Source of the DNA: Bodo saltans
Lineage: Eukaryota > Euglenozoa > Kinetoplastea > Eubodonida > Bodonidae
Reading direction: 5' to 3'
Assembly (NCBI GenBank): GCA_001460835.1
Contig: CYKH01000729.1
Span: forward strand, 1 to 37,622
Length of the DNA stretch: 37,622 bases
Positions within the stretch are counted from its first letter, which is position 1. The number at the start of each line of letters is the position of its first letter. The notes under the pieces were generated by a model. That model ran no database searches. It had not been told where the DNA came from and was given only the letters and a program-made list of their open reading frames with translations. The translations under genes were made by a program, and so were the position numbers. Shown one piece after another: positions 5,957-37,622 of the stretch.

Positions 5957-7264
5957 ATGGGAGATCACCGTTTTTCGAAAAGGCAATACGCTACCAGTTG
6001 CATGTTCACGTTACTGTTCACGATGCTAGTCTCCGCATCGTACTTCGACATCGCCACTTGCCCCTACAACTCACAAGGTGGTGCTGCTCTCAACCCAAAC
6101 AAATCTGCAGCAACGCCTTCCATTTTTGATGAGCACTTCTCCATCGTTCCGTGCCACACCATCGATGTCGTGATTTGGACATACGTTGCCCTCTTTGGGT
6201 TCTTTATGGTGTACAAGTGGTTTATGTATCGAGCGGACGGATACCACTATTTCATGTTGGATTATTGTTACTTTCACAACGCGTGTTTATGCGCGCTGAT
6301 CTTTCATTTGCTGGTGCGTGTGTCTTGGGTGCCGACTGGGCTCGCTTCTCTTGCCATTCCAGTTCCTGTGGACATCACTCCTGTTGCGACTGCTGTCGGA
6401 AGCTTGACCTCGGATCGACTCTCCATCGCAACGTTTCTATTTTTCGTGATTCTTGCCGGCACCTTCGGACCGATTCTTGGTGCGATCCTCATGTGGAAAA
6501 ATGCATTGCTGTACCACAGCTTTGACAAGATGATTTCGTGCTACTTGCATCTCGCTCCTGCCGCGGTGCAAGGATTGCTAGTGCACGCCGCTCTGTCGTC
6601 CGTTCGCCTGAGACCCAAGTCAAAACTCAGAGACCATTTGAAGTCAGACACTAATTTTACAAGTCTACTCATGATGCACACCCTCATGTTTATTGTGTGG
6701 CAAGTTGTGTACCATGCGGTGCATGAAATCCGCTTGTACCAACGACGACGTGCATTCCACGCAGCAATGATGCGCCGCGTCAAGGATGGTGTCAGTGCCA
6801 GCATGCCCCCCTTGGACCTCCTCTCTCCTAGCCCTGAAGTGAAGGAGCAGGTGAAATGGGGCACAGTGGAAGATCGTGAACTGTATCGATGCATGGTCCC
6901 AAGAACCACTGCCTACACATGGATGATGGAGTACCCTCCGATGGGGAAGAAGGGGCCGTTGTACAAACTAGTGGTACTGCTCGGTAAGAAGCGGCTTCCC
7001 TCGACCGTCATGTTTGCTGTGGCTCAATGGATCATTCATGCAGTGTTCTTTGTGCTTGGATTCATCCCGCTGTACCTATCCTTGATCCGTTACGATTCCG
7101 CTGGCCCTCTGCTGCTGTATACTTGTGGTTTTGTTCTCCTGTGCATCTACAATGCGGCGGCTGTGAATAAGAGCTGGATCAAGAAGCTCAAGGCGCAAGC
7201 TGATTCCGCTGAAAGCTTGAAGGCAGAATTAGAGGCGCTGAAGCGGGACATGAAGAAGCAATGA
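5957..7264 (+). CDS. GPC1: Glycerophosphocholine acyltransferase (GPC1, DUF2838 family)
   Basis: This is a 435-residue multi-pass protein, close to the length of yeast Gpc1. Family hallmarks are visible: FMLDYCYFHN at about residues 98-107, and an acyltransferase core with LLYHSFDKMISCYLHLAPA at about 184-202, then HTLMFIVWQVVYH at about 241-253. In the known family the enzyme acylates glycerophosphocholine with acyl-CoA to form lysophosphatidylcholine in the ER membrane, recycling choline lipid backbones. I see about eight hydrophobic segments. One lies near the N-terminus, and two follow a hydrophilic loop around residues 265-340. A charged coiled-coil-like tail (KKLKAQADSAESLKAELEAL) closes the protein. 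The start is supported by a pyrimidine tract plus AG upstream. Alternative identities are unlikely. Confidence 0.85.
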   Translation: MGDHRFSKRQYATSCMFTLLFTMLVSASYFDIATCPYNSQGGAALNPNKSAATPSIFDEHFSIVPCHTIDVVIWTYVALFGFFMVYKWFMYRADGYHYFMLDYCYFHNACLCALIFHLLVRVSWVPTGLASLAIPVPVDITPVATAVGSLTSDRLSIATFLFFVILAGTFGPILGAILMWKNALLYHSFDKMISCYLHLAPAAVQGLLVHAALSSVRLRPKSKLRDHLKSDTNFTSLLMMHTLMFIVWQVVYHAVHEIRLYQRRRAFHAAMMRRVKDGVSASMPPLDLLSPSPEVKEQVKWGTVEDRELYRCMVPRTTAYTWMMEYPPMGKKGPLYKLVVLLGKKRLPSTVMFAVAQWIIHAVFFVLGFIPLYLSLIRYDSAGPLLLYTCGFVLLCIYNAAAVNKSWIKKLKAQADSAESLKAELEALKRDMKKQ

Positions 7265-19741: not shown

Positions 19742-21340
19742 ATGCGATGTCCTTCTTCTCGTGCGCGCACCATTGCCTCAGTCAACCTCGTTCTGTCGCA
19801 AAGATCGGTTCACACAACTTCCTTCTTGCGTTCCCCCAGCGAGGCCACTGAGCAAGGCTCGAGCGTACGTTTAGCCCCGTTGCGATGTCCCGGTGGCGCT
19901 CGTATGACGTCGCAGGACATCAAGTCGCTGTTTAATGTACCAAGTGGTGGATACTTGGCGAAGTATGATCAACGATTCATTCTCAACTTGAAACTCACCC
20001 ACCAAATCATGGCGCACCTTGCCAAGACGAACACTACGAATGACAAAGTCCTCGTGGAGCTCGGCCCAGGTGCTGGCGCTCTCACAAGAAGCCTTTTGAC
20101 GCGGCCCTCACAGGGTGTCCTTGGCATCGAAGTGGACCCGCGCTACAATTCCTTGCTGGAGCAAATTTCTACTCAAACCGACGGAAAGTTTCAATGGCGG
20201 AACGCTGACGTGCTGGCGGTGGATGAGTTCGAACTCATCCGCGAGGTCTTTCCGACGTTTACCAAGCAAAACGAGCGAACACCAACTGTTGGACCGTCAG
20301 GCAGTAGTGGTAGTGGTGGTGGTCCGATGGCGAATGCGTCACGAGCTGAGGCGCTGAGACAACGACGTCAGCGTTCCCAATCGAGTGGAGGAAACCGTAG
20401 CAGTAGTGAAGGCGGTGCCTCCTCGATGGAGGCGACCGAAGCGCCAAGGGACCTTCAGTGGTGGGCCAATGGTAGCGCTAAAGTGGAAGTCATTGGAAAT
20501 CTACCATTCTCCATCGCAACGGAGCTGCTCATGCGATACGCGGTGGATTGTAGTTTGCAGCGCGGATTGTACCGCTTTGGTCGTGTGCCGCTTCATTTCT
20601 TTGTGCAAAAGGAGATTGCGGAACGTTTGACTGCAACCCCGAACACGCCGCAATTTTCGCGGCTTTCAGTGTTAACTCAAAACTTTTTCCGCGTTGCAAT
20701 TCGGCAGACGTTTACAGAGATGACGTATTTTCCTCGGACGGAAGTACTCGGTTGCTTAGTCACCCTCGAGCCGCGTGTTGCACCACTCGTGGACGTCAAC
20801 GCGTCTGTCCTCATCAACTTCTTAGACCAACTCATGAAGCCTGGGATGCGTAATCAAATGATCAGCAAGTCGTTGAACCGCTGCATGCCTCAAGAAGTTG
20901 TCATGTACATTCTTCAAGAACTGCGCATGGATGGATCCGTCCTCCCTGCTCAACTTTCCGCAATGGAGGTGTCGAGCATGGCGAGGATGTGGGAGGTGTA
21001 CCTGACGAAAACAAACCAACGACAACATCACTCCACGCGCGTCTCTCAAGCGAATGATGACGACAACACTGAACCACGTCCTAATTGGCACGAAGAAGAC
21101 AATTCAGATGATTTCGCTCACTTACATTCGACAAAGAAGCCACCACCGCATCAAACGAAGAGCACCGATGCATTTCGCGTCGTACGAGAGTTTGTGTCAA
21201 GCGAGCAAGAGGCGCTTGATTATGATTGGGAGAAAGAGGCGCAATACGCCCGTCGCAAGCGTGATCAGGCGAATGAGCGCAGCAGTGCGGGTGAAAAACG
21301 TTCTGCTTCACGGCATCGTTCTGCGCAAGGACGAAAGTAA
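19742..21340 (+). CDS. Mitochondrial rRNA adenine dimethyltransferase (KsgA/TFB1M family)
   Basis: This is a 532-residue protein. The N-terminal 50 residues are Arg/Ser-rich without acids, fitting a mitochondrial presequence. SAM-dependent methyltransferase motifs appear in order: KYDQRFILN (74-82), LVELGPGAGALTRSLL (104-119), GIEVDPR (128-134), NADVL (154-158) and IGNLPFSIATELL (251-263). The last is the NLPF form of the family's catalytic NLPY/NIPY motif. Family members dimethylate two adjacent adenines at the 3' end of small-subunit rRNA; metazoan TFB1M does this in mitochondria. A Ser/Gly/Arg-rich insertion (about 175-245) separates the cofactor and catalytic motifs. A charged tail of about 110 residues follows the C-terminal domain. 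Whether it methylates or acts only in ribosome assembly cannot be told here. Confidence 0.88.
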   Translation: MRCPSSRARTIASVNLVLSQRSVHTTSFLRSPSEATEQGSSVRLAPLRCPGGARMTSQDIKSLFNVPSGGYLAKYDQRFILNLKLTHQIMAHLAKTNTTNDKVLVELGPGAGALTRSLLTRPSQGVLGIEVDPRYNSLLEQISTQTDGKFQWRNADVLAVDEFELIREVFPTFTKQNERTPTVGPSGSSGSGGGPMANASRAEALRQRRQRSQSSGGNRSSSEGGASSMEATEAPRDLQWWANGSAKVEVIGNLPFSIATELLMRYAVDCSLQRGLYRFGRVPLHFFVQKEIAERLTATPNTPQFSRLSVLTQNFFRVAIRQTFTEMTYFPRTEVLGCLVTLEPRVAPLVDVNASVLINFLDQLMKPGMRNQMISKSLNRCMPQEVVMYILQELRMDGSVLPAQLSAMEVSSMARMWEVYLTKTNQRQHHSTRVSQANDDDNTEPRPNWHEEDNSDDFAHLHSTKKPPPHQTKSTDAFRVVREFVSSEQEALDYDWEKEAQYARRKRDQANERSSAGEKRSASRHRSAQGRK

Positions 21341-22512: not shown

Positions 22513-23283
22513 ATGGCGCACTATCTGCCGCATCATCAGCAAGGCGCGAGGTTTCCAGAGCGGCAAAGGCCATATGACGACAACAACACTCAACGCCCTA
22601 ATAGGCCAGAATTGTGGCGACGCAACGTAGTTGCTGTGATCTTCAACGAGGACGGGCATGTGTTGGGATGTAATCGCAAGGATCGAAAGGGTTGGCAGTG
22701 TGTCCAGGGTGGTGTTGAGGACGACGATAAAGAAATTCTCGCTGCCGCATGGCGTGAGATTGACGAGGAAATTGGTCTCTTAGAGAAGGAGCACCGCTTG
22801 GAGTTTGTGAGTGTGCTTCCTCCTCCCAACAACGACCCCACTGTGCTACGGTACAAATTTCCGAAGTTCGCCGCACCTGGGCTGCGCGCACAGGGCTACG
22901 TCGGTCAACAGCAGGAACTGCTGCTGTTCTTCGCACCAAAAGAGGCAATTAAGTTTGTTCGTCTCGTGCCCACGCCGCAGCACATCGCCGCGGGCGCAAA
23001 GCAAGAGTTCCGTGGCGTAAGTTGGCTATCATTTGAAGAATTCATCCCAAAGACGTCAGACTTCAAGCTGCATATTTTTTCGCACATGCATACCACCTCT
23101 TGGCCAATTATTGTGGATTTTCTTGACAAACGCTTTGGAAAAGTGGATCGTCCATTTCAAGGCGCACAAAATGGTGCGGCGACGAACTACGAAGAAGCCG
23201 CGTATGCGAAACCATCCGGCAACATGGCCAGAGTAAGAGAGCGTGAAGAAGAAGTTCCTCGCAAGCAACATGAGAAAGCGTGA
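22513..23283 (+). CDS. Nudix hydrolase, RppH/Ap4A-type
   Basis: This is a 256-residue protein. Residues 35-180 form the Nudix domain: RRNVVAVIFNEDGHVLGCNR, then WQCVQGGVEDDD, then AAWREIDEEIGL. The WQ..QGG lead-in is typical of the RppH and diadenosine-polyphosphate hydrolase branch, and REIDEEIG (81-88) carries the metal-binding glutamates. The box is one residue longer than GX5EX7REUXEEXGU, and its first Glu position reads Asp or Lys. The substrate is therefore a nucleoside or RNA 5'-polyphosphate in general terms. There is no clear presequence, so a cytosolic site is likely. The C-terminus is a charged tail of about 45 residues. The next gene's acceptor lies only about 120 bases beyond the stop. 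Confidence 0.85.
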   Translation: MAHYLPHHQQGARFPERQRPYDDNNTQRPNRPELWRRNVVAVIFNEDGHVLGCNRKDRKGWQCVQGGVEDDDKEILAAAWREIDEEIGLLEKEHRLEFVSVLPPPNNDPTVLRYKFPKFAAPGLRAQGYVGQQQELLLFFAPKEAIKFVRLVPTPQHIAAGAKQEFRGVSWLSFEEFIPKTSDFKLHIFSHMHTTSWPIIVDFLDKRFGKVDRPFQGAQNGAATNYEEAAYAKPSGNMARVREREEEVPRKQHEKA

Positions 23284-25979: not shown

Positions 25980-26498
25980 ATGCTGCGAAGACAGATTTTT
26001 CGGTTGAATGTGAAAGTTATCCCAGGAGGGGCAACTGCACAAACATCGTGGGACATGAGGCCGAATGATTTTCAACAACGGCATAACACAGTTCACAACG
26101 ACAACGGCACCATAAACCTCGACTCATTGCCCAACACAATCCCCGGGGTCAGTCGAGAGGAACTTGCCGAGAAGCTGCAAAAGATGGGAGCTGCACACAG
26201 ACAGAAAACGACAGATAAGCACCGTGAGAACATCGCGAGACAAATTGACACGATGCGCAGGGCAATGCCACCAGCTGAATTCAAAGATTTTTTAAGACAA
26301 CTGGAAGCCAAAGAGGCTCTAGCAATGGACGAGGCTGAGAAAGTGGATTCGATGACCCCAGCCGAGTTGTACAGATACCAACTCAAACGCCAGCGCAACC
26401 AAAACCTCTGGCAGTGGGTTTACGTGATCATGCTGGGTGGAGCATTTGTGATGGGCATCTTCTTCATGTTTTATTTCCTGCTGTTTCACTTCTACTGA
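25980..26498 (+). CDS. Small mitochondrial membrane protein, C-terminal anchor
   Basis: This is a 172-residue protein. The N-terminus MLRRQIFRLNVKVIPG is basic and amphipathic, like a mitochondrial presequence. Residues about 55-135 are highly charged and helical, probably coiled coil (SREELAEKLQKMG, then ARQIDTMRRAMPPAEFKDFL). One long C-terminal helix, WQWVYVIMLGGAFVMGIFFM followed by FYFLLFHFY, ends at the C-terminus. The layout fits an accessory subunit of an inner-membrane complex. I do not recognise the family. The T-rich run TCCTCTTTTTTTT followed by AG near 25950 lies just upstream. Confidence 0.7.
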   Translation: MLRRQIFRLNVKVIPGGATAQTSWDMRPNDFQQRHNTVHNDNGTINLDSLPNTIPGVSREELAEKLQKMGAAHRQKTTDKHRENIARQIDTMRRAMPPAEFKDFLRQLEAKEALAMDEAEKVDSMTPAELYRYQLKRQRNQNLWQWVYVIMLGGAFVMGIFFMFYFLLFHFY

Positions 26499-26718: not shown

Positions 26719-28596
26719 ATGCGTTCATTGACCGCGACAACTGCTGGGCAACAAAAGGGACTTGCGATGCTTCGATACCGCGGCGCCACTTGGGTCGATT
26801 TCACAAGAACGACCACGCCGCTCACTCAGTCGCGGCGTTTCGCTGCCGCAGTCGTCTTTGATAGCTCCAGCAAGGCAAGCCCGCAAACAAATTATGTCAC
26901 GATGGGCGTCGAGGGTGTCCTGCACACCATTAAGTCGCTGCATCAAACCCATAGCAGCTCCGCTACGCAGCACTTGGGTGCTCGAGCGGTTGTCTCCGCT
27001 TCACAAAATGTCTACGAAAATCTCGCGGTTGAGGAAGCTCTTATGCGTGCGGTAGTGCTGGTGCCGGTTTCACATAACAACTACAACGACGGGTGCAAAC
27101 CAACAAATCCTCTAAACGTCAATAACAGCGATGCAACCGATCCACAGTTGCAGTTGCTGATGTTTTCGTACATAAACTCTCCGTGCGCAGTCATTGGCCG
27201 GAATCAGTGTGTGTTCACCGAGGTCAACGTCCCGTTATGCACACAGCGGGGGGCACTGGTGGCTCGCCGAAGCTCTGGTGGTGGCACAGTATTCCACGAT
27301 GCTGGAAACGTCAACTTTACGTTTTTCACCCACCGCCATAGCTACGACCCTGTTCGAACCATTGGAATTCTCATGAGGTTTCTGATTGAGCATTTTTCTA
27401 TTGATCCGCGTCGTCTCACCACCACCGGACGTCACGACATCTTCCTGGATGGGTGCAAGATTACTGGCAGTGCGATGCGAATCCAAAAAGACGTTGCTTT
27501 TCATCACTGCACACTTCTCGTGGCGTCAAATCGTGCTGCGTTGCGTGGCTCACTGGGCACCAGCGGAGACTATGTGAATGTGTCCACAAAGTCCACCACA
27601 TCCGTTCGCTCGCCAGTCACAACACTTCGGGATGCGGGTGTACTGGAACTTGTCGGGGGCGACGACAAGAAGGAGACTGAGCTTGATGCTGCGAAACGTA
27701 TCCAAGCTGCATTCCTCACATTTGTCTTGAACCATGGATTGGATGTGTACGCTGCGACCCGCTTGGGTAGCGATGCTGTCGCTGCTGCTGTGGCCAGTGG
27801 TCAAGAGACCCAGGTCCATCACAACATGTTGTGGCCTGGTTCCCCCCTCCTTCACCGCAGCGAAGTTTTCTCAACGCTGCTGGTCGCAAGCACTGATGAC
27901 ATTGCTAGCACACCATTTATTGAAGGCGAGGGTCGCAAAGTCCCACCGCGCAGTCATTCAAAGATCGCAGAAGAAATTGCGATGCTTTCAAGTCCAGAGT
28001 GGATCTACGGCGCGATGCCTTCCCTTGAGGTGACCGTTCGAGTGCACAAGTCCGACGTCAACCAATGTCTCAGCGAGCGGATGATGGGGTCCCTCGATGC
28101 CCCACGTATCAGCGGTTTCCTCAACGCAATGATCAAGTTCACCTTTGGCGGACCAACTGACGCCAACACGGCCATTCTGTGTCGTGTGATGCTTGAGCGG
28201 GGCATTGTCACCTCTGCTCACTGGTTTCCCATTGCGCCCAGCAGCGATGAAGAGCCGTCTACGAGCTCCAGCGACTGTTGTTGCTGTTGGTTCGATCCGT
28301 TGTTGTCTGCATACACAGCTGGAAGGGGTGTCAATGGCGTTCGTGACGGTCTTCCGTTGCAAGGGTTTGACGGCGTCATCGCTGAGTTGTATGCGATGGA
28401 TCCTACGGCCCTTTGGGATCAAGTCATCTTCGCCGCCGCGGACTCTTCGGCATCTAGAGAGCTTGAAGATGCGATGAACAACGTTCACGAAGTGCGCTCT
28501 GAGAGCGCCGGAACAAAGAACGCTTGGATGCCAATTCTCCCGCACTTTCTCCGAGCCATCATCCACTGCTCAATTGGTGCTGCAGGGCTAAAGTAG
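26719..28596 (+). CDS. lplA: Lipoate-protein ligase (LplA/LIPT1 family), mitochondrial
   Basis: This is a 625-residue protein. An Arg/Ser/Thr-rich N-terminus of about 45 residues fits a mitochondrial presequence. The ligase core has VYENLAVEEALMR (98-110), VIGRNQCVFTEVN (158-170), the lipoate/AMP-binding RRSSGGGTVFHDAGNVNFTF (183-202), and GRHDIFLDGCKITGSA (237-252) with the catalytic lysine at about 247. A C-terminal accessory domain begins near SSPEWIYGAMPSLEVTV (about 430-446). The family activates or transfers lipoate onto lysines of 2-oxoacid dehydrogenase E2 and glycine cleavage H proteins. At 625 residues it is nearly twice the usual length, owing to low-complexity inserts and a Cys-cluster loop (SSSDCCCCWF). 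Ligase versus transferase activity cannot be separated by eye. Confidence 0.88.
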   Translation: MRSLTATTAGQQKGLAMLRYRGATWVDFTRTTTPLTQSRRFAAAVVFDSSSKASPQTNYVTMGVEGVLHTIKSLHQTHSSSATQHLGARAVVSASQNVYENLAVEEALMRAVVLVPVSHNNYNDGCKPTNPLNVNNSDATDPQLQLLMFSYINSPCAVIGRNQCVFTEVNVPLCTQRGALVARRSSGGGTVFHDAGNVNFTFFTHRHSYDPVRTIGILMRFLIEHFSIDPRRLTTTGRHDIFLDGCKITGSAMRIQKDVAFHHCTLLVASNRAALRGSLGTSGDYVNVSTKSTTSVRSPVTTLRDAGVLELVGGDDKKETELDAAKRIQAAFLTFVLNHGLDVYAATRLGSDAVAAAVASGQETQVHHNMLWPGSPLLHRSEVFSTLLVASTDDIASTPFIEGEGRKVPPRSHSKIAEEIAMLSSPEWIYGAMPSLEVTVRVHKSDVNQCLSERMMGSLDAPRISGFLNAMIKFTFGGPTDANTAILCRVMLERGIVTSAHWFPIAPSSDEEPSTSSSDCCCCWFDPLLSAYTAGRGVNGVRDGLPLQGFDGVIAELYAMDPTALWDQVIFAAADSSASRELEDAMNNVHEVRSESAGTKNAWMPILPHFLRAIIHCSIGAAGLK

Positions 28597-29166: not shown

Positions 29167-32100
29167 ATGTCTACTCTGTCACAGCAAAACGACGTGTCTT
29201 CATTTCACGGCGGCGATCTCGATGAGGAAGCGCCTGCAATTCGCGCCACCAGCCGCTTTGGAGACGAGGAAGACGTGGAGCAGTTGGTGGACATCAAAGG
29301 AAAAGAGGTTATGATGGGCACACTAGTCGTCAGCGATGTGTCGGCGTCACGCTCCCCGCACTCGCATAGCAACAACGAAGGTGTAGGAGGGGGGACTGCA
29401 AATCACCTCCCATCCATTCTGCTGAAGAACGATCATCATTCACAACGCAGCTCGCGGGGAAGGAGCCCTTCTGTGGAGACAGAGAGAATAGCGAGCACGT
29501 CCACTCGATTTCGTAGCGGCTACTTAGAAGATCATCCCTTTGAGCATCATGCAGGGGATGCCCTTGACCACTCCTCGCACATTGAGGTGGAGCTGGATGA
29601 TGATGACCACGGCCCTGAAGACCCGCATCGAGCGCTGCAAGTCTCTCCTTATGACGATTACAGCAATAATGATGTTGGCGTTGAGAATGGTCGCCGCCGT
29701 CGTCGGCCTCGATCGTGCCTCGTCTCGATGCGGCTCGGCGTGTTTCTCGTCGTTGCCGTCGTGATCGGTACAGCTGGTTTCACTCATCTCGCGACTCTCG
29801 CTCCCAACAGCGCACCCATCGAGGAGCAAGGTGTGCTGACGTACCGCACCACTCTTGCTGGTGCTGCGGAAACGATCTTGACAAAGATCTTAAATGAGTT
29901 GTCCATGGTGGTGCAGATTGCTGGCATTTCTTACATGAGCCCACGTGTGGGGTACAACATCACGCAAGATCCCTCTGCTGACCCCACTTGGGACATTGGA
30001 CTGCACAAGTGGTTCTTAGGGGAAGCGGAGCTGCATCCTGAGCGCCGATTTTGCTACATTGACGCCGGGTCATTTTCATGGACTTGCCAACATCTTCGGG
30101 ATTCTTCTGGCAGCGTACGCCGTGTTGTTGGGAACCGATCTAGCCTTGTGGGGTACACTTACACGCGCAACATCACCGGTGGAAGTCTGCCGCTGCGCTA
30201 CATCAACAGCGGGCCCATTGATATGCCAGTCAATCCCACAGACGTTGCTCTTCAATTTTTAGCAACGGGCACATCCCTCTTCTTCATGACTCCGTTTTTG
30301 GATTTCACTGGCTACGTCTCCTACGCCTACGCTATCACCGTTGTCACGCCGCAAGGATTTCAAGGCATCCTTATGGAGTACATTACCGTGGAGGACTTCA
30401 TCACGCCCACCTCTCTGGTGTACGCAAGAATCACAACATCGTGCGACGTAGGGCCTTGCTCAGCAACGTTTGACAATGGAGGGGGCCTTGTAACCACCAC
30501 TGTCCCCATCAGCACTGTGTACGTCAGCAACACCACTCCGGGTGCCGTTTGTCTGACATCACCGTGGACCGGGTTCTCACGATGCCGCCACTCCCGTCAC
30601 ACTCTTAGCACCATCTGGCCGCAGCTGCCCGCTGTGATCAGTGATCGACCAGACATCCTCACTTCGGAGTGGGTATCGTTTCAGTTCAAGTACCAAGGGG
30701 AGCATTACCTATCCACTTCCGGGATCGCGAATCTGTCGTATCAATCGTGGCTTTCTGTTGTGATCACACCGGCAGATCCCATTTTCGGTGCCTTTTTCAC
30801 TTCGCGCAATAAAATTATTATTGTCGTGGTTGCTGCGTGCGTAGCATCATGCGCGTTAGCCCTGTTGTTTATTCAGCTAGCCCTGTCGCGCATGACCACA
30901 ACGCTAGACGACATGACATCGGCACTTGCACTTCGATCCCGGACGCAAACGAAGGGTGAATTCACGAGCCGCAGGGAAGGTCGAACCCATCTCATAGGAC
31001 TCTCCGAAATTCAAGCGATTGATGATGCAATCGTTGCTCTAGACGGCTACCTTGATAACCTTGGTGCAATGCTACCATCCGCTGTACTGGCCGCAATGCG
31101 TTGGCATGTTGCGAAACTGCGACGAGATCAGAGACGAGCGAACCGTCAAAAGTGGGGTTCCTTTGCATGCTTATTCTCCTCTGCTCCTGTAGACGATAAC
31201 TCCAATAGTGAAGCCAGTGAATATGAGCAAAGCAGTGGAGAGCCGCAAGAGAATGTTCCACTTGCAGACGACATTTCTCAAAATGACAATTCATTCGATG
31301 AGGAAGCGTTCTTGATTGCAGCCATGCGCATTGGCACCCTTAGCAACACCGTCGGGAAACTTGCTGACGCGCCCAATGATTCCCTGTCTGGTTCTGGTCC
31401 CGCACCGTCGTCATCGATGTCAGCCACGCAGTCAAATACCAGCGGCATCGTCGTCGCAAAGCAGCCGCTCCCCCCATTGCAACAGCTACAAGTCGCTCAA
31501 CAGCTTGCGTTGCGCAACAACCGTGACAGCGAACTCTCCACGAAAGCACTGCCCGCCGAGACTCCCCATGAGGCAGCTCCTCACTCCAGCCTGCCAATGG
31601 ACTTGGAGTTTGCCACAGAGCCGGAGCTGTCTGGTGACATGTGCCCAGAGGGAAGTGGTGCCGTTGGGGCAATTGAGGTGCCATCGGGAATCCTTCAGCC
31701 ATCCAAGTTTCAATCGGTAGTCTTCCGACGAAAAGGAATATTTGCATCGGTTTCATTGAGTGCCGTGGAATGTGATTCCGCGGAAGATTTCCAACAACTC
31801 CTTAGCAACATCATGAGGCTGAACTGGTCCTACAAGGGAGAGTTCGAGGGATTCTCGTTTAAGCACTTTTTGTTTTCCTTTGGATGCTACGAGGACATCA
31901 AGGACCCTGAGGTCTGCGCCTGCAGCTGTGCGCTGAACATGTTGCGTGGGTTTCAACAATGGTGCCACACTTCTGAAGGACGAATCCGTGGGAAGATTTC
32001 CGTCGCCATTGACGCGGGTCGCTATGAAGATGTCACACTTGTTGCGTGTGCCAACACCGTTCGACCAATCCGCAACAAAATTATCACAACTGCCGCGCGG

Positions 32101-32676
32101 TACAGCGTCGAGCGATTGAACGTTCTGTGCGATATTCTGAACGAGCCGTTAGTGGTGACAGAAGAAGTCAAGAAAAATTTGAAGCTGGTCACAAGTGTGA
32201 TTGACAATGTTAGATTCGCGCCAACATGCATGCCGCGACTTTCACGTCGCGGCGATGTTCGCTTGTACCGTGTAGAAATGAAGAGCGCGTTGGCACCAAC
32301 TCCCCCAGTAACTCTTCAGTTCCTCAAAAACGACTTTCATGAAATCTTCAAACAGATGATGGTAGGAAACTTTATCGACGCTCATCGAAGCATCCTGCTT
32401 GGTCATCAACGATGTATGGTTCTGAATTATTCTGCGGCGTCGCGCCGATTCCTGCACTACTGCAGCATCATGATGGCGTGTGGAAAGGGCAGGCCGGGGA
32501 CTCCAGCGCGGAATGGAATTGCGGGACGTCAGCGAGTAGGCACCATCTACTACCGTGGCGAGATGCAAGAGTGGAATTTGCAAGCGAGTGAGGTGGAGCA
32601 CTACCGGTGCGTGTGGATTGAAGCGGACGGTGCAACTGCAAGGCAACACTTTGGTGCAGTCTTGATGACTGAGTAA
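29167..32676 (+). CDS. Receptor-type class III cyclase-like protein, catalytic Asp residues lost
   Basis: This is a 1169-residue protein. A disordered acidic cytoplasmic N-terminus (1-185) is followed by TM1 (about 188-208, LGVFLVVAVVIGTAGF) and an N-glycosylated ectodomain (about 210-545), with a double-Cache-like end (SWLSVVITPADPIFGAF) just before TM2 (about 548-572, IIIVVVAACVASCALALLFI). A HAMP-like linker and a conserved AMLPSAVLAAMR segment follow. Residues about 855-1020 resemble a class III nucleotidyl cyclase, including FKHFLFSFG and GKISVAIDAG. The first metal-binding Asp is replaced by Ser (S861) and the second by Lys (K899), so I expect no cyclase activity. A tail of about 140 residues follows. 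It is paralogous to the gene starting at 34416. The likely role is a surface sensor or a dimer partner. Confidence 0.75.
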   Translation: MSTLSQQNDVSSFHGGDLDEEAPAIRATSRFGDEEDVEQLVDIKGKEVMMGTLVVSDVSASRSPHSHSNNEGVGGGTANHLPSILLKNDHHSQRSSRGRSPSVETERIASTSTRFRSGYLEDHPFEHHAGDALDHSSHIEVELDDDDHGPEDPHRALQVSPYDDYSNNDVGVENGRRRRRPRSCLVSMRLGVFLVVAVVIGTAGFTHLATLAPNSAPIEEQGVLTYRTTLAGAAETILTKILNELSMVVQIAGISYMSPRVGYNITQDPSADPTWDIGLHKWFLGEAELHPERRFCYIDAGSFSWTCQHLRDSSGSVRRVVGNRSSLVGYTYTRNITGGSLPLRYINSGPIDMPVNPTDVALQFLATGTSLFFMTPFLDFTGYVSYAYAITVVTPQGFQGILMEYITVEDFITPTSLVYARITTSCDVGPCSATFDNGGGLVTTTVPISTVYVSNTTPGAVCLTSPWTGFSRCRHSRHTLSTIWPQLPAVISDRPDILTSEWVSFQFKYQGEHYLSTSGIANLSYQSWLSVVITPADPIFGAFFTSRNKIIIVVVAACVASCALALLFIQLALSRMTTTLDDMTSALALRSRTQTKGEFTSRREGRTHLIGLSEIQAIDDAIVALDGYLDNLGAMLPSAVLAAMRWHVAKLRRDQRRANRQKWGSFACLFSSAPVDDNSNSEASEYEQSSGEPQENVPLADDISQNDNSFDEEAFLIAAMRIGTLSNTVGKLADAPNDSLSGSGPAPSSSMSATQSNTSGIVVAKQPLPPLQQLQVAQQLALRNNRDSELSTKALPAETPHEAAPHSSLPMDLEFATEPELSGDMCPEGSGAVGAIEVPSGILQPSKFQSVVFRRKGIFASVSLSAVECDSAEDFQQLLSNIMRLNWSYKGEFEGFSFKHFLFSFGCYEDIKDPEVCACSCALNMLRGFQQWCHTSEGRIRGKISVAIDAGRYEDVTLVACANTVRPIRNKIITTAARYSVERLNVLCDILNEPLVVTEEVKKNLKLVTSVIDNVRFAPTCMPRLSRRGDVRLYRVEMKSALAPTPPVTLQFLKNDFHEIFKQMMVGNFIDAHRSILLGHQRCMVLNYSAASRRFLHYCSIMMACGKGRPGTPARNGIAGRQRVGTIYYRGEMQEWNLQASEVEHYRCVWIEADGATARQHFGAVLMTE

Positions 32677-33518
32677 GAAAAAAAGTTTTTAGATAGCAGC
32701 CTTTCAGGGCACTTCTTCATTTCGCGAAAGGTTTGAAAACGCACGCTTCGCCAAAAATCTAGAATCGTGTGCTTCGTTCTTTCCGAATGTGGTTTTTCTT
32801 TTCCCCGTTGTTCGTTTGTTGTTTCCCTCCATCGCTGGCAATGCAAGAGATACTTGTAGCTATCACACCATCTCTTGCTCTTGGCTCTCCAATTATTTGT
32901 TCCTCTTTGACCATCACAGGCGTTGCGTGCCGAGGCTCATCATATGTACATACGTTTGTGACAGTTCTTTCGATGCAATCGTGATGCTGATGCTCTTCTG
33001 CAACTACGTAGGAGCCAAAAAATGTGATGAGAGGAGAGTATTTAGTGAAGCAGCGATGAATTCGACAGTGAATTGCTTGCACTCCCCTTCCTACTTTTCT
33101 AAGAAAGAAGTCAAACCGCAGTGCAACGCGAACAAAAAATCTTGATTTCCCCCCCAGCGCATTGATTTCGGCAACATCAATCCCCATCATGGTGTTTTTA
33201 TTTCCTCTGGTGAGGAGGGCCGTTTCCTCCGTTTACCCAGAGCTCAGCTTGTTGAAGTATCACCCAAAAAAAGTGTCTGTGTTCGTAGAAATTTCGTGTA
33301 AGGTGTCTTTTTTTCTCTTTTTTGTTACCACCTTTCGCGGATTTTTCAGCCTCCACATCTATGTGTGCCCTTTTCTCCTGATTTTCGCCCATTACACACC
33401 GCTTTTCGTATTTCTTAAGACAGCACGCTGCCAGCAAAAAAAGGGAGATTTGCTCGTTTGCATCAACTGTTTTGCCTTTAAAATAAATTGAGAACACTTT
33501 GAAAGAACATAGACTCAC
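32677..33518 (+). other. T-rich intergenic region with two doubtful small ORFs
   Basis: This gap of 842 bases is strongly pyrimidine-rich. ATG frames at 32787-32984 (65 codons) and 33189-33491 (100 codons, hydrophobic, beginning MVFLFPLVRR) exist. However, their Phe/Val/Cys-rich composition is what T-rich DNA gives by chance, and the second runs through the best splice acceptor. I see no structured RNA. Confidence 0.5.
33302..33349 (+). promoter_or_regulatory. Candidate spliced-leader acceptor for gene at 33519
   Basis: The pyrimidine tract TGTCTTTTTTTCTCTTTTTT and then GGATTTTTCAG ends with AG at 33348-33349. A leader of 169 bases would precede the ATG at 33519. Confidence 0.5.
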
Positions 33519-34046
33519 ATGCTCAGACGGACGCTCCGACAATGTTTGCTGAAGCAAGCGGCTCATCAATCGCAGCCAGGGCAATTCGATCGGTCGTTCG
33601 AGAAAGTTGTGGATAGGATCGAGCATTCTTCTCCCCGCTTGAAATTAGTGAACGAGCTTTCAGGAGGTCCAAACGTGAAAGAGAAGGACCAGTGGTTTGG
33701 CGATATCCCTGAAAACGAAATGAAGGAGCAAGCGCAGCAAGATCTGTGGGGCAAAGAGGGTCCCTCCATAGCAGACCAAAAGCGTAGCATCATCTTTGAT
33801 GGAGAGCAATGGGGACAGCGCGTTTCGGACACACTTCGACGAGCAGAGAAAACACGCGCTTCACAACCCCCAATGGACCCGAAAATCTTGAAAACGACGA
33901 AAGAAACTGCAGAGTACTATTACCCGCAGCAGACTCTCGAAGAAAAGCGCACTCGACGAGCAATCGCTGGAACTTTGGCCTTTGCAATCTTACTGTTTTT
34001 CTTAAACTGGTTTAGAAAAGCCCTGAATGCAGCTCGATCTGACTGA
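33519..34046 (+). CDS. Small mitochondrial membrane protein, C-terminal anchor
   Basis: This is a 175-residue protein. The N-terminus MLRRTLRQCLLKQAAHQSQ is basic with no acid for 20 residues, a good mitochondrial presequence. A hydrophilic charged middle (about 25-145) contains DQWFGDIPENEMKEQAQQDL and YYYPQQTLEEKRTRR. One transmembrane helix near the C-terminus (AIAGTLAFAILLFFLNWF) is followed by a short basic tail. The size and layout match the product at 25980-26498, though I see no clear sequence similarity. It is possibly a lineage-specific subunit of a respiratory or import complex. The family is not recognised. Confidence 0.7.
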   Translation: MLRRTLRQCLLKQAAHQSQPGQFDRSFEKVVDRIEHSSPRLKLVNELSGGPNVKEKDQWFGDIPENEMKEQAQQDLWGKEGPSIADQKRSIIFDGEQWGQRVSDTLRRAEKTRASQPPMDPKILKTTKETAEYYYPQQTLEEKRTRRAIAGTLAFAILLFFLNWFRKALNAARSD

Positions 34047-34415
34047 GCATTCGCAACCAAGATACCCCTACCCCGGTTTTTTTCAATAGGGGAAAATACT
34101 TTGACTGCATGCATCAAGATACACCACTATTTTCTCATTTGAATATATTTCTTTTTGTTGTTGTTGTTTGGTTGATCTTTGAAAAGAGGATACAGGAGCA
34201 CTCAATAAGGAGGAAGTTTCTTTCTAGTCAACAAAACATCGCGCCTTCTCTATATTTCCTCCCTTAGGTTCAATTCGCTCATCAGCTTACCCCCTTAGTA
34301 GGGTCCGCCCCCTCCTCACTTCAAATACTCGAATTTTAACAACGCAATACAACCTCGTCGCCTCCCTCCATATCACCAATCTCCTTTTTTCACAACTACA
34401 CCAGCGCGTCAACCA
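34047..34415 (+). other. Intergenic region with splice-acceptor-like sites, no gene
   Basis: This 369-base gap has a TTTCTTTTTGTTGTTGTTG run near 34149, TTTCCTCCCTTAG (AG at 34266-34267), and CTCCTTTTTTCACAACTACACCAG (AG at 34403-34404), the last only 11 bases before the ATG at 34416. Confidence 0.5.
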
Positions 34416-37400
34416 ATGTCAACCCACTCGCAAGCTCCGCTCAACACCAGCACCCAGCTTGCCTCAGTGGTTCGTGTTCCTCCGTCTGCTGCCGCTTCAC
34501 CCTCCGCCGCGCCTTCGCCCAGGCGAACGTCACAAGAAGATGAGGGCGATCCAAGTGAATATGATGCTGAATACAAACTACCTCCCGTCATAGTTGGAGA
34601 CGCTAGTGAACTCGAAGAAATTTTATCGACCTCAAGGAAGAAGCCAAATAACAGCAGCCTGAGCGACGGCGATTTGGTCGGGGGGCTCATCCTAGAAAAC
34701 AATGATAGTGGTGATGTTGTAGAACGACGAAGGCTGATCCACTCAGATATTGTTCAAGAAGAGTTAGAGGGAGCTAAAAACAACACTATGACCCAGTCTT
34801 CCTCCTCTCTCCGCAATCAGAAGCGGCACCACGGCACGAAGCGATGCACCGTCACAATTCCGATGTGGTTTGGTTGCGCAGTCCTTTGCACCATTCTCGT
34901 TGGTGTCGTCGGATTTACTCCTTTTTTTGCTACGCAGTCAAACAATGAAATTGTTGTGGGTGCTGCCCGAGAGTCATACAACACAGCCGTTGGCAACACA
35001 GGTGTCAAGATATACTACAAGTTTATCAACGAGCTCATTACGCTTATTTTAGCATACAGCCAAGCAAACTTCAAGCCGTTTCAAATGACGTCCGTCAACT
35101 TCTCAAATCCGTTCTGGGATCGAGAGTGGCAGTTGTACTTTATTGGGGCAGCCGTTACCGTGCCCACCCGATACTTTTACTACATGGATCTTGCTACGGG
35201 CCATTTTACAGGACAATACCCCACTGGTCCAAACAGAACTGAGATGATGCGAATTGTAGGGAATGTCAATGATGTGAACTTTACCTTGTTCCGTCGCAAC
35301 ACCCTTCCTCCTCTCGAATTCCAGCCAGTGGGATCAGCGTCGCTGTTGTTCCCTCCTGCAGTAGCATTCAACGCATTCTTTGCGAAAAGTCAAGCAGCTG
35401 CTCTCGTCGCTCCAAGTCTCGATGTGCAGGGGGGAATGATGTATGGGTACGCGCGCTTTATCACTTCCCCGCTCACCACGCCACCCTACACAATTCCTGT
35501 CGGAGCTTTGCTTGAACTTTTGCCACTTCACGAAATGATTTCTGCCTCGGACACTGCGGTCACAAACGTTGCCCGCTTTAGCGGGGAGTCCGTCGTTCTT
35601 GACGACACCGGTGCTTTGGTGTCGTGCTCGCTTCCTGCACTAGCTGGGAACATCTTTGTTCCTGTTGGCACACCTGGAGCCATATGCACCACAATCGTGT
35701 ACAACAACGTCACCACCTCCAAATGTCGACACTCCCTTTCGACGCTTCGGCTTGTGTGGCCGCTGTTTGGTGCAGCACACGATGCATATTTTCTGCGCTC
35801 CAACGTCACCCTACCTGGTGCAGTCAATTTGAACGTCGCATTTCAATCGATGAATTTTAGTTACGTGACCTTTCAGTTTGAAGGTCAGGAGTACATGGTC
35901 TCGGCATCGTCTCCAAGCCTTGAGGCAGGATCTGGTTGGTGGGCTGCCGCTATTACACCCACTGCTCCCGTGTACGGGCCATACATCGCAAACAGGAAGC
36001 GCATCATATTAGTCGTTGCGTTGGTTTGTGCAGGTATGGCGCTGCTGGTCCTTGTCTTGACGTTTATTCTCATGCGTCCCCTAGGCGTGTTGATGAGCGA
36101 TATGATTGCCGCATTGCGGCTCCAGACGCAGAGTGATCGGTACGCAAAGACTCTGTCTAGAGCTTCTGGGCATCCACATCAGACAGGATCATCATCCTCT
36201 GTTACAATGTGCGATGGGTGGCGACTCCAAGTCAGCGAGCTTCACGACATTGGTCACGCCGTTGTCTGCCTTCATAAGCTGTTGGAAGAGGTTGCAACGA
36301 TGCTCCCACCCCCAGTCATTCTCATGATCCGCACCTCCTTGGCTCAGCGCACCACAGCCCACTACTTGTCTTCGAGCACCACGTCTTCAGAAGACGCGGG
36401 CACCATTGGATCCGGGAGCCTCTCGAGCAGTGATGCTCACGCACACCCTTCAGCCTTTGCCAGCATCGATTCTTCTCGTTCGTCAACACAGAGTAGATCG
36501 AACAAGACCAAACATGTCCACCCCCACGGCAGCAGCAGCAACAACAACCAGCACGGCATCCACCATGATCGCCAGGAGGACGAAAACGTTGTGCAAATGC
36601 TTGCGTGGTTCGAAGACTACTACCGCGTAAAGGGCTCCGTCCTCCCGCCGCCACTAGAGTACGCTGCGGCAGCACCGAAGGAAGTCCTTCAGTTAGATGA
36701 AGACGTCATTGAGGTCGTTGCCACAACACTGGAAGATATTCATCAAGTCGACGCCCCCATCAACATCGGCACGCTTGAAGTAACACAAGCAATAACGGAC
36801 AAATCATCCCCAGCCGATGATGTGGATGTTTCCCCGCCTGATCACCAGGCAGGTCTGGTGCCTCTGTCAAACCACGCTGTTGCTGCCAACAGTATCCTCA
36901 TGAACCCGACCGTTTCATTGCGACCGGCCCGTCGCCGTGGATTCTTCATGGCAGTGTCGCTAGTGGCGCTCAAATGCAGGCCTTCTCACTTTGCCGAGGC
37001 CATTGCGCCTCTTCTTTCACTTGTATGGCATCACGGCGGCGAGATCGAAATGATCGAGCGCAGCTTCATTCTGGCAACCTTTGGGTGCTACGTGGAAGGG
37101 GGAGATTCTGCTAGCCGGGCTGTGACGTGTGCGATCGCTATCGCTGAGCAGCGTGGGCGAATGAAACGATCGCTCAGCGTATCTAGAAATGATTGGGAGC
37201 ACGAAGAGGCTTCATTCGAAAGTGCTGCGAGGTGCACAATTGCCATCGACTGCGGGTGGTTCGAGACGTCAACATTTTCCTGTGTCCTCCCTGGTGGCCG
37301 CCTGATGCGCCGCCAGGTCGTTTCGTCGGTGGCGCGTGACGTTGCCGTGAAGATGCTCCCACTCGGCGAAGTGCTGAACGAGCGCCTGCTGATCACCGGT

Positions 37401-37622
37401 GATGCATTGCGTCACGTAGACCCAAAAACCTTTTTAGGTCGTGCTCCTTTGATTATGGACCACCTGCGATTTGATGTGAAAAGTTGGTCAAAGGTGTCGC
37501 GTAGGGGCTCTGTATTTATATTTTCAGTGCCGACGTTGATGACAATCACGTCAGCCTCAGAATTGCAGCAGCACACTGAACCCACTTCAATGCCACCAGC
37601 ATTGTCCGACAAGTTAAGCGAA
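34416..37622 (+). CDS. Receptor-type class III cyclase-like protein, paralogue, 3' partial
   Basis: I read this frame codon by codon. It is open from the ATG at 34416 (MSTHSQAPLNTSTQ) for 1069 codons to the window end with no stop. The layout matches 29167-32676: a Ser/acid-rich cytoplasmic N-terminus, TM1 (about 150-172, MWFGCAVLCTILVGVVGF), a glycosylated ectodomain ending in WWAAAITPTAPVYGPYI, TM2 (about 529-553, IILVVALVCAGMALLVLVL), and a linker with TMLPPPVILMIR. A His/Ser/Asn-rich spacer follows, then a cyclase-like domain from about 840 (GFFMAVSLVALKC, ERSFILATFGCYVEGG, CTIAIDCG). The metal-binding Asp positions read Ala (A846) and Arg (R882), so it is also predicted to be inactive. 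The C-terminus is missing. Confidence 0.75.
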   Translation, partial: MSTHSQAPLNTSTQLASVVRVPPSAAASPSAAPSPRRTSQEDEGDPSEYDAEYKLPPVIVGDASELEEILSTSRKKPNNSSLSDGDLVGGLILENNDSGDVVERRRLIHSDIVQEELEGAKNNTMTQSSSSLRNQKRHHGTKRCTVTIPMWFGCAVLCTILVGVVGFTPFFATQSNNEIVVGAARESYNTAVGNTGVKIYYKFINELITLILAYSQANFKPFQMTSVNFSNPFWDREWQLYFIGAAVTVPTRYFYYMDLATGHFTGQYPTGPNRTEMMRIVGNVNDVNFTLFRRNTLPPLEFQPVGSASLLFPPAVAFNAFFAKSQAAALVAPSLDVQGGMMYGYARFITSPLTTPPYTIPVGALLELLPLHEMISASDTAVTNVARFSGESVVLDDTGALVSCSLPALAGNIFVPVGTPGAICTTIVYNNVTTSKCRHSLSTLRLVWPLFGAAHDAYFLRSNVTLPGAVNLNVAFQSMNFSYVTFQFEGQEYMVSASSPSLEAGSGWWAAAITPTAPVYGPYIANRKRIILVVALVCAGMALLVLVLTFILMRPLGVLMSDMIAALRLQTQSDRYAKTLSRASGHPHQTGSSSSVTMCDGWRLQVSELHDIGHAVVCLHKLLEEVATMLPPPVILMIRTSLAQRTTAHYLSSSTTSSEDAGTIGSGSLSSSDAHAHPSAFASIDSSRSSTQSRSNKTKHVHPHGSSSNNNQHGIHHDRQEDENVVQMLAWFEDYYRVKGSVLPPPLEYAAAAPKEVLQLDEDVIEVVATTLEDIHQVDAPINIGTLEVTQAITDKSSPADDVDVSPPDHQAGLVPLSNHAVAANSILMNPTVSLRPARRRGFFMAVSLVALKCRPSHFAEAIAPLLSLVWHHGGEIEMIERSFILATFGCYVEGGDSASRAVTCAIAIAEQRGRMKRSLSVSRNDWEHEEASFESAARCTIAIDCGWFETSTFSCVLPGGRLMRRQVVSSVARDVAVKMLPLGEVLNERLLITGDALRHVDPKTFLGRAPLIMDHLRFDVKSWSKVSRRGSVFIFSVPTLMTITSASELQQHTEPTSMPPALSDKLSE

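Follow-up and report, generated by a model that had tools for sequence, protein, structure and literature searches.

Two receptor-like paralogues close contig CYKH01000729.1

The window analysed here is the entire Bodo saltans contig CYKH01000729.1 (C342 in our numbering; 37622 bases), and the genome searched was the 29.3 Mb assembly of 934 contigs to which it belongs. A kinetoplastid spliced-leader end occurs twice in this genome, and the reversed sequence used as a control has no match, in keeping with a kinetoplastid source. Two long open reading frames (ORFs) on its + strand, P0001 and P0002, encode candidate receptor pseudo-cyclases, i.e., predicted membrane receptors with a conserved C-terminal domain that resembles class III nucleotidyl cyclases and lacks their catalytic residues. 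P0002 is incomplete, as the contig stops at 37622. The two proteins share 24% overall identity, and phmmer related them through both the receptor half (E 4.9e-34) and the C-terminal half (E 5.4e-14), which bears out their initial annotation as paralogues. Their parts follow a common order: an N-terminal tail, a first transmembrane region (TM1), an ectodomain of ~340 residues, a second transmembrane region (TM2), a helical linker ending in the motif MLPxxVI or MLPxxVL, a low-complexity stretch, and the conserved C-terminal domain. Consistently with the layout of two transmembrane segments first proposed for both receptors, hydropathy revealed regions of transmembrane strength at residues ~181-213 and 546-577 of P0001 and at residues 144-174 and 527-565 of P0002. 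The features are as follows (basis in parentheses).

29167..32676, + strand: P0001, candidate receptor pseudo-cyclase, divergent family member, 1169 residues (ORF; paralogues in its own genome)
29707..29805, + strand: P0001 TM1 region, residues 181-213 (hydropathy)
29800..30801, + strand: P0001 ectodomain, possibly dCache-like, its aligned region holding five N-glycosylation sequons (location between TM1 and TM2)
30802..30897, + strand: P0001 TM2, residues 546-577 (hydropathy)
31003..31101, + strand: P0001 helical linker of the SEIxxI...MLPxxVL type, common to a dCache-cyclase receptor of the same genome (phmmer, hhalign)
31726..32301, + strand: P0001 class III cyclase-like domain (profile comparisons; fold by homology to P0002)
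32302..32673, + strand: P0001 C-terminal tail with a YYRGE motif common to other copies (alignment)
34416..37622, + strand: P0002, candidate receptor pseudo-cyclase of the main clade, 1069 residues shown (ORF; paralogue identity)
34845..34937, + strand: P0002 TM1 region (hydropathy)
34938..35993, + strand: P0002 ectodomain (location between the transmembrane segments)
35994..36110, + strand: P0002 TM2 region (hydropathy)
36234..36332, + strand: P0002 helical linker (hhalign of the family TM2-linker profile)
36930..37535, + strand: P0002 class III cyclase-like domain (profile comparisons; AlphaFold model; Foldseek)

P0001 and P0002 belong to a multi-copy family

Searches with either protein, combined with reading of the frames, recovered at least 11 family copies on five contigs: two on C342, five on C341, two on C844, and one each on C186 and C914. 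Six of the 11 are full open frames of 838-1169 residues, and another four are truncated at a contig end (P0002, the first copy and the last on C341, and the first on C844). One C341 copy is interrupted by stops, a TGA and a TAG within 2007-3113 (L046 2007-4573), and entered the comparisons with its downstream open frame only. The eight copies that were aligned have an identical order of parts. P0002 falls into a main clade, being 47-55% identical to six paralogues across long segments, and P0001 is the outlier of the family, with 24-26% identity to seven others. C341 also bears a short inverted family fragment at 1371-1619. Moreover, C341 (L046 3-956) and C844 (L048 3-899) both open inside a family gene at identical codons (RCLLLATFGCYEAVDDAADRA), a sign that the assembly may have broken in a repeated stretch.

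In a collection of bacterial and archaeal genomes and in viral contigs, 47 and 386 stretches, respectively, fitted a peptide pattern of the C-terminal domain, and tblastn confirmed none of them as relatives. Our survey of the literature on Bodo saltans cyclases, kinetoplastid receptor cyclases, and degenerate cyclases found no paper on this receptor family in titles and abstract openings, most subscription papers lying outside reach; in Jackson et al. 2016 (PMC4728078), the word "cyclase" does not occur in the main text.

The C-terminal domain resembles class III cyclases

Profile comparisons and a predicted fold both suggest that the C-terminal domain has a diverged class III nucleotidyl cyclase fold. 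A profile of ten family domains retrieved three PDB chains at E<=10, the first and third of which are cyclases (2w01, E 0.13; 6fht, E 0.65), and the 2w01 alignment covers cyclase strands 2 and 3 plus the next helix. For hhalign, the targets were 17 class III domains (A3) and 11 related domains (A6) of the same genome. The family domain scored 24.8-27.3 against these sets (P 0.007-0.011), above the reversed profile and, in all four comparisons made, above 100 of 100 column-permuted profiles, a lenient control whose best score was 20.4. Real sequences also ranked first in forward and reverse hidden Markov model searches, and hmmsearch assigned 12.0 bits to P0002 and 6.7 bits to P0001, versus 1.6 bits for the best of 200 shuffles.

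The AlphaFold model of the P0002 domain, built from the two window sequences with a mean predicted local distance difference test score (pLDDT) of 37.7 and a predicted template-modeling score (pTM) of 0.34, displays the strand-helix-strand-strand-helix-strand-strand-helix order expected for class III. When this model was compared to the PDB with Foldseek, the best 50 of 533 matches included five at E<=0.001, all of them class III cyclases and headed by Cya2 (2w01, E 7e-5); ranks 1 to 22 were likewise occupied by class III cyclases throughout. A model of the ectodomain with similarly low confidence (pLDDT 38.3) yielded no match at E<=0.001, which speaks against the cyclase result being a mere by-product of a poor model.

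Several results weigh against a cyclase assignment. Neither whole protein matched any Pfam family at E<=1, and PF00211 (Guanylate_cyc), the profile by which the initial annotation expected to recognize the domain, matched none of the ten family C-terminal domains at E<=10, HMMER filters discarding most matches above ~E 0.1. The PDB profile matches 2w01 and 6fht are not significant alone, and hhalign gave the family domain a probability of 4-5% against cyclases. In the forward hmmsearch, four of the ten family domains stood clearly above the best shuffle and the rest did not; in the reverse search, 3 of 25 cyclases exceeded the best of 400 shuffles. The leniency of column permutation and the low confidence of the AlphaFold model belong on the same side, together with the poor overlay of that model on the structures in Foldseek ranks 1 to 22 (template-modeling scores on query length of 0.23-0.36).

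An NCBIfam scan found no domain in P0001 or P0002. Ketol-acid reductoisomerase, represented by four PDB entries at E ~1 with P0001 alone, was judged a chance match and rejected. On balance, the C-terminal domain is likely of cyclase origin. That it has the class III nucleotidyl cyclase fold, and descends from a common ancestor with the genome's own dCache-type receptor cyclases, is supported indirectly. The class III resemblance originally noted is thus absent from Pfam and present in several weak profile lines and in the fold comparison of a low-confidence model; put differently, a match is missing for the PF00211 sequence profile and found at the level of structure by Foldseek.

The TM2-linker region links the family to dCache-type receptor cyclases

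Residues 505-646 of P0001 matched a receptor on contig C737 (phmmer E 1.3e-5) with Guanylate_cyc above the cut-off (E 9e-6) and dCache_1 below it (E 2.3e-9, 37.6 versus 45 bits). Two receptor copies on C115 have the same combination, PF00211 above and dCache_1 below the cut-off. The TM2-linker profile of the family aligned with that of these three dCache-cyclase receptors at E 3.7e-5 and 71% probability in hhalign, a comparison that ran without a shuffled control and counts for less on that account. The C115 receptor P0007 (L052 619-2925) has two transmembrane segments, as in the family. Its residues 161-414 also matched the NCBIfam phosphodiesterase GepA at E 7.4e-6, far below the cut-off of that model.

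The ectodomains are harder to place. PF02743 (dCache) had no Pfam match in P0001, P0002, or two paralogues, and the profile score of the family ectodomain against three dCache ectodomains of the genome (18.7) was lower than that of the strongest among 50 column-permuted controls (23.2). When the two ectodomains of the window were combined into a profile, the PDB set returned only a phage protein (E 0.29). The best Foldseek matches of the ectodomain model were ligand-binding domains of TlpA, which we take to be of the dCache type, at a nonsignificant E of 0.018. A dCache-like ectodomain is therefore a guess.

The family has lost the catalytic residues

Alignment of the family domains with class III cyclases located the following residues in the window.

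31753..31755, + strand: P0001 Ser863, first strand, at about the position of the first metal aspartate (register uncertain; alignment)
31861..31863, + strand: P0001 Lys899, replacing the second metal aspartate (alignment)
32113..32115, + strand: P0001 Arg983, at the transition-state arginine position, in YxxxR rather than NxxxR (alignment)
36957..36959, + strand: P0002 Ser848, first strand, at about the position of the first metal aspartate (register uncertain; alignment)
37062..37064, + strand: P0002 Ser883, replacing the second metal aspartate, with the preceding Arg882 replacing Gly (alignment)
37350..37352, + strand: P0002 Lys979, at the transition-state arginine position, in DxxxK rather than NxxxR (alignment)

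Across the ten rows that cover it, the second metal site is occupied by S (P0002), K (P0001), S, F, E, C, S, G, C, and C, and never by aspartate. The residue that precedes it, Gly in cyclases, is Arg in nine of the ten and Phe in P0001. The first strand bears Ser-Leu in all eight covering rows, with no aspartate at that position (0/8), the register being uncertain; a Glu lies three positions past this Ser in three of them. The Asn of NxxxR is missing from all ten domains, the last position of the motif is invariably Lys or Arg (10/10), and most copies read DxxxK.

The Ser/Lys pair initially read at the metal sites of P0001 thus stands. The Ala/Arg pair read in P0002 gives way to Ser848 in the first strand, in the register adopted here, and Ser883 at the second site, with Arg882 one column off. 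The family table likewise led us to reject the idea of independent, charge-reversing substitutions under selection, since a basic residue occupies the second metal site in only one of ten copies (P0001) and Glu does so in another. Variability of this extent points to release from constraint at the metal site rather than selected charge reversal, and the losses are most simply accounted for by shared descent followed by drift at an unneeded site. Given a cyclase origin, loss of catalysis is very probable.

The domain is conserved despite the loss of the metal site

P0002 and its clade are 49-64% identical over the C-terminal domain (five comparisons) and 45-54% identical over the ectodomain (six comparisons). 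For P0001 versus the family, the two regions are alike (27-31% for the domain and 26-31% for the ectodomain). The ratio of nonsynonymous to synonymous substitution rates (dN/dS) between the C914 copy and the interrupted C341 copy was 0.138 at dS 0.98 over 194 C-terminal codons; this is the sole listed pair with dS <1 and it includes the interrupted copy, which lessens its weight for the reading proposed below. The other 15 C-terminal pairs listed had dS >1.8 or were saturated and give no firm dN/dS. In the upstream region, six of seven pairs were at dN/dS 0.147-0.179 or saturated, and the C914/C341 pair gave 0.466 over 46 codons, part of which is possibly out of frame. Judged by these comparisons of sequence, the C-terminal domain is under constraint despite the loss of its metal site. 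Both the domain identities and the dN/dS of 0.138 thus support the proposal in the initial annotation of a noncatalytic-looking, cyclase-like domain kept under a receptor.

Partly dead cyclase domains are common in the genome

Among the cyclases of Bodo saltans, we examined 17 class III domains, chosen nonrandomly from 29 matches (the 12 omitted were partial, second domains of a gene already used, N-containing, or fetched unaligned). Only 6 of the 17 have the intact D, D, N, R set; in L001, which gives the best PF00211 match of all (E 6e-48), the first metal site is Ala. The related set, 11 domains in L052, L051, and L064-L071, was drawn from 33 matches to the C115 receptor; it shares three rows with the former and includes eight domains fetched as cyclase region only. 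These 11 are clearly class III (hhalign probability to A3 of 99.3%; best PDB profile E of 2.6e-19). Their first metal site is Asn in ten and Thr in one, the second is Asp in all 11, and the Arg of NxxxR is present in none. It follows from the two sets that, as far as catalytic residues tell, partly dead cyclase domains are common in this genome, the family in the window being the extreme case.

Neighboring genes

The initial annotation described P0001 and P0002 as tandem. They are indeed two long + strand ORFs, at 29167..32676 and 34416..37622, and strict tandem arrangement is contradicted by a third ORF that intervenes.

33519..34046, + strand: 175-residue ORF between P0001 and P0002, with one hydrophobic C-terminal stretch, outside the receptor family (ORF)

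A Pfam scan returned no match for this ORF. Another small ORF at 25980-26498 (172 residues) resembles it in that both begin with MLRR and have one C-terminal hydrophobic stretch; the two are perhaps mitochondrial membrane proteins. Elsewhere in the window, the ORFs at 26719-28596, 19742-21340, 22513-23283, and 5957-7264 matched lipoate ligase (PF21948), rRNA adenine dimethylase (PF00398), NUDIX (PF00293), and DUF2838 (PF10998), respectively.

Interpretation

We favor the reading, at a probability of roughly 60%, that P0001, P0002, and their paralogues are noncatalytic, dimerizing receptor pseudo-cyclases with two transmembrane segments, which perhaps act via partner cyclases. The ectodomain would bind an extracellular cue, and the signal would travel via TM2 and the helical linker to a dimer of the cyclase fold that, being unable to hold the catalytic metal ions, would make neither cyclic AMP nor cyclic GMP. 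By dimerizing with competent receptor cyclases, the pseudo-cyclase could tune or block them as a dominant-negative or allosteric partner; alternatively, it may pair with itself or with a second pseudo-cyclase to form a platform on which cytosolic partners dock. Regulation through heterodimers is tentative, and we hold it at slightly under even odds. It is argued from analogy, which tells against the proposal, as does the apparent damage to both halves of the composite active site, from which the metal aspartates and the N of NxxxR are gone. With the metal side and the opposite-side Asn both lost, a mixed dimer seems unlikely to regain catalysis, and inhibition, allosteric control, or docking would fit better.

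Other explanations account for part of the evidence. The C-terminal domain could be an alpha-beta domain unrelated to cyclases, whose likeness to them lies in one strand-strand-helix unit, as the lack of a Pfam match and the low hhalign probability would suggest. However, separate comparisons agree on a similar register, the domain has the same location behind a homologous TM2-linker, and Foldseek ranks class III structures first, which makes this explanation improbable. If the domain is a cyclase relative, it may act as a metal-independent sensor that binds ATP, GTP, or a cyclic nucleotide and passes this on to the receptor. The basic residue at the transition-state arginine position of all ten copies speaks for such sensing, whereas the base-recognizing lysine position, which we take to lie four residues before the second aspartate, is Met, Leu, or Gly in the eight covering rows; from these residues, nucleotide sensing appears unlikely, if less so than an unrelated domain.

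The family might instead consist of relaxed, decaying receptor cyclases that have lost catalysis, are heading for loss, and have a domain without present function. As decay would predict, a C341 copy (one of 11) contains stops and the residue at the second metal site varies freely, but six copies retain full frames of 838-1169 residues and another four are truncated at contig ends, conservation of the cyclase-like domain about equals or exceeds that of the ectodomain, and the C914 and C341 copies differ at a dN/dS of 0.138 (dS 0.98, 194 codons). Decay is accordingly no more credible than an unrelated domain. We give even less credence to catalysis that persists through migrated or unconventional residues, such as a first-strand Glu or one at the second site, or through metal binding by other side chains. 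The Glu three past the first-strand Ser in three of eight copies, the Glu at the second site in one of ten, and the Lys or Arg at the arginine position in all ten would be in keeping with it, yet neither site has an acidic residue common to the copies, and both the Asn of NxxxR and the usual Gly-Asp are changed in ten of ten.

The favored reading of noncatalytic, dimerizing receptors can be set beside known systems. The family resembles class III cyclases (PF00211; Cya2 2w01, CyaB 3r5g, and CyaC 1wc0) in its predicted order of strands and helices and in its best PDB profile and Foldseek matches, but it has no PF00211 match, metal aspartates, or NxxxR asparagine. With the dCache-type receptor cyclases (two on C115 and one on C737) it shares the TM2-linker motif, the C-terminal cyclase-like domain, and, in P0007, two transmembrane segments; these receptors, in contrast, score above the cut-off of PF00211, and all 11 members of the related set retain the second aspartate. 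Trypanosomatid receptor adenylate cyclases of the ESAG4/GRESAG4 type likewise occur in kinetoplastids in multiple copies and carry their C-terminal cyclase domain in the cytosol; that domain is catalytically active, and the ectodomain is of another type. They have one transmembrane segment and work as dimers, as sections of PMC6337498 describe, whereas the family has two hydrophobic segments and no catalytic residues. In chytrid NeoR, where NxxxR has become TxxxK, heterodimers combine one active and one putative regulatory site, according to passages of PMC12264004. NeoR is thus also a membrane sensor with a noncatalytic class III site, TxxxK standing where the family mostly has DxxxK; it differs in being a rhodopsin with a known partner, while the family also lacks the second metal aspartate and its partner is putative.

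Among kinases, pseudo-enzymes are a familiar phenomenon; among cyclases, they have received less study. A wider proposal, conceivable though doubtful, is that Bodo saltans has a receptor repertoire with variously dead cyclase domains, in which cyclase-fold dimerization rather than messenger synthesis would be the output of much of the sensory set and the few intact cyclases would serve as shared catalytic partners. Cyclase counts based on PF00211 can miss members such as this family. If the reading offered here is true, multi-copy receptor pseudo-cyclases under constraint would bear on why kinetoplastids keep many receptor cyclases, and the family would offer a natural way to find out whether inactive subunits modulate active ones, an effect that PMC9481589 proposes for heterodimers of trypanosome cyclases, either activating or dominant-negative.

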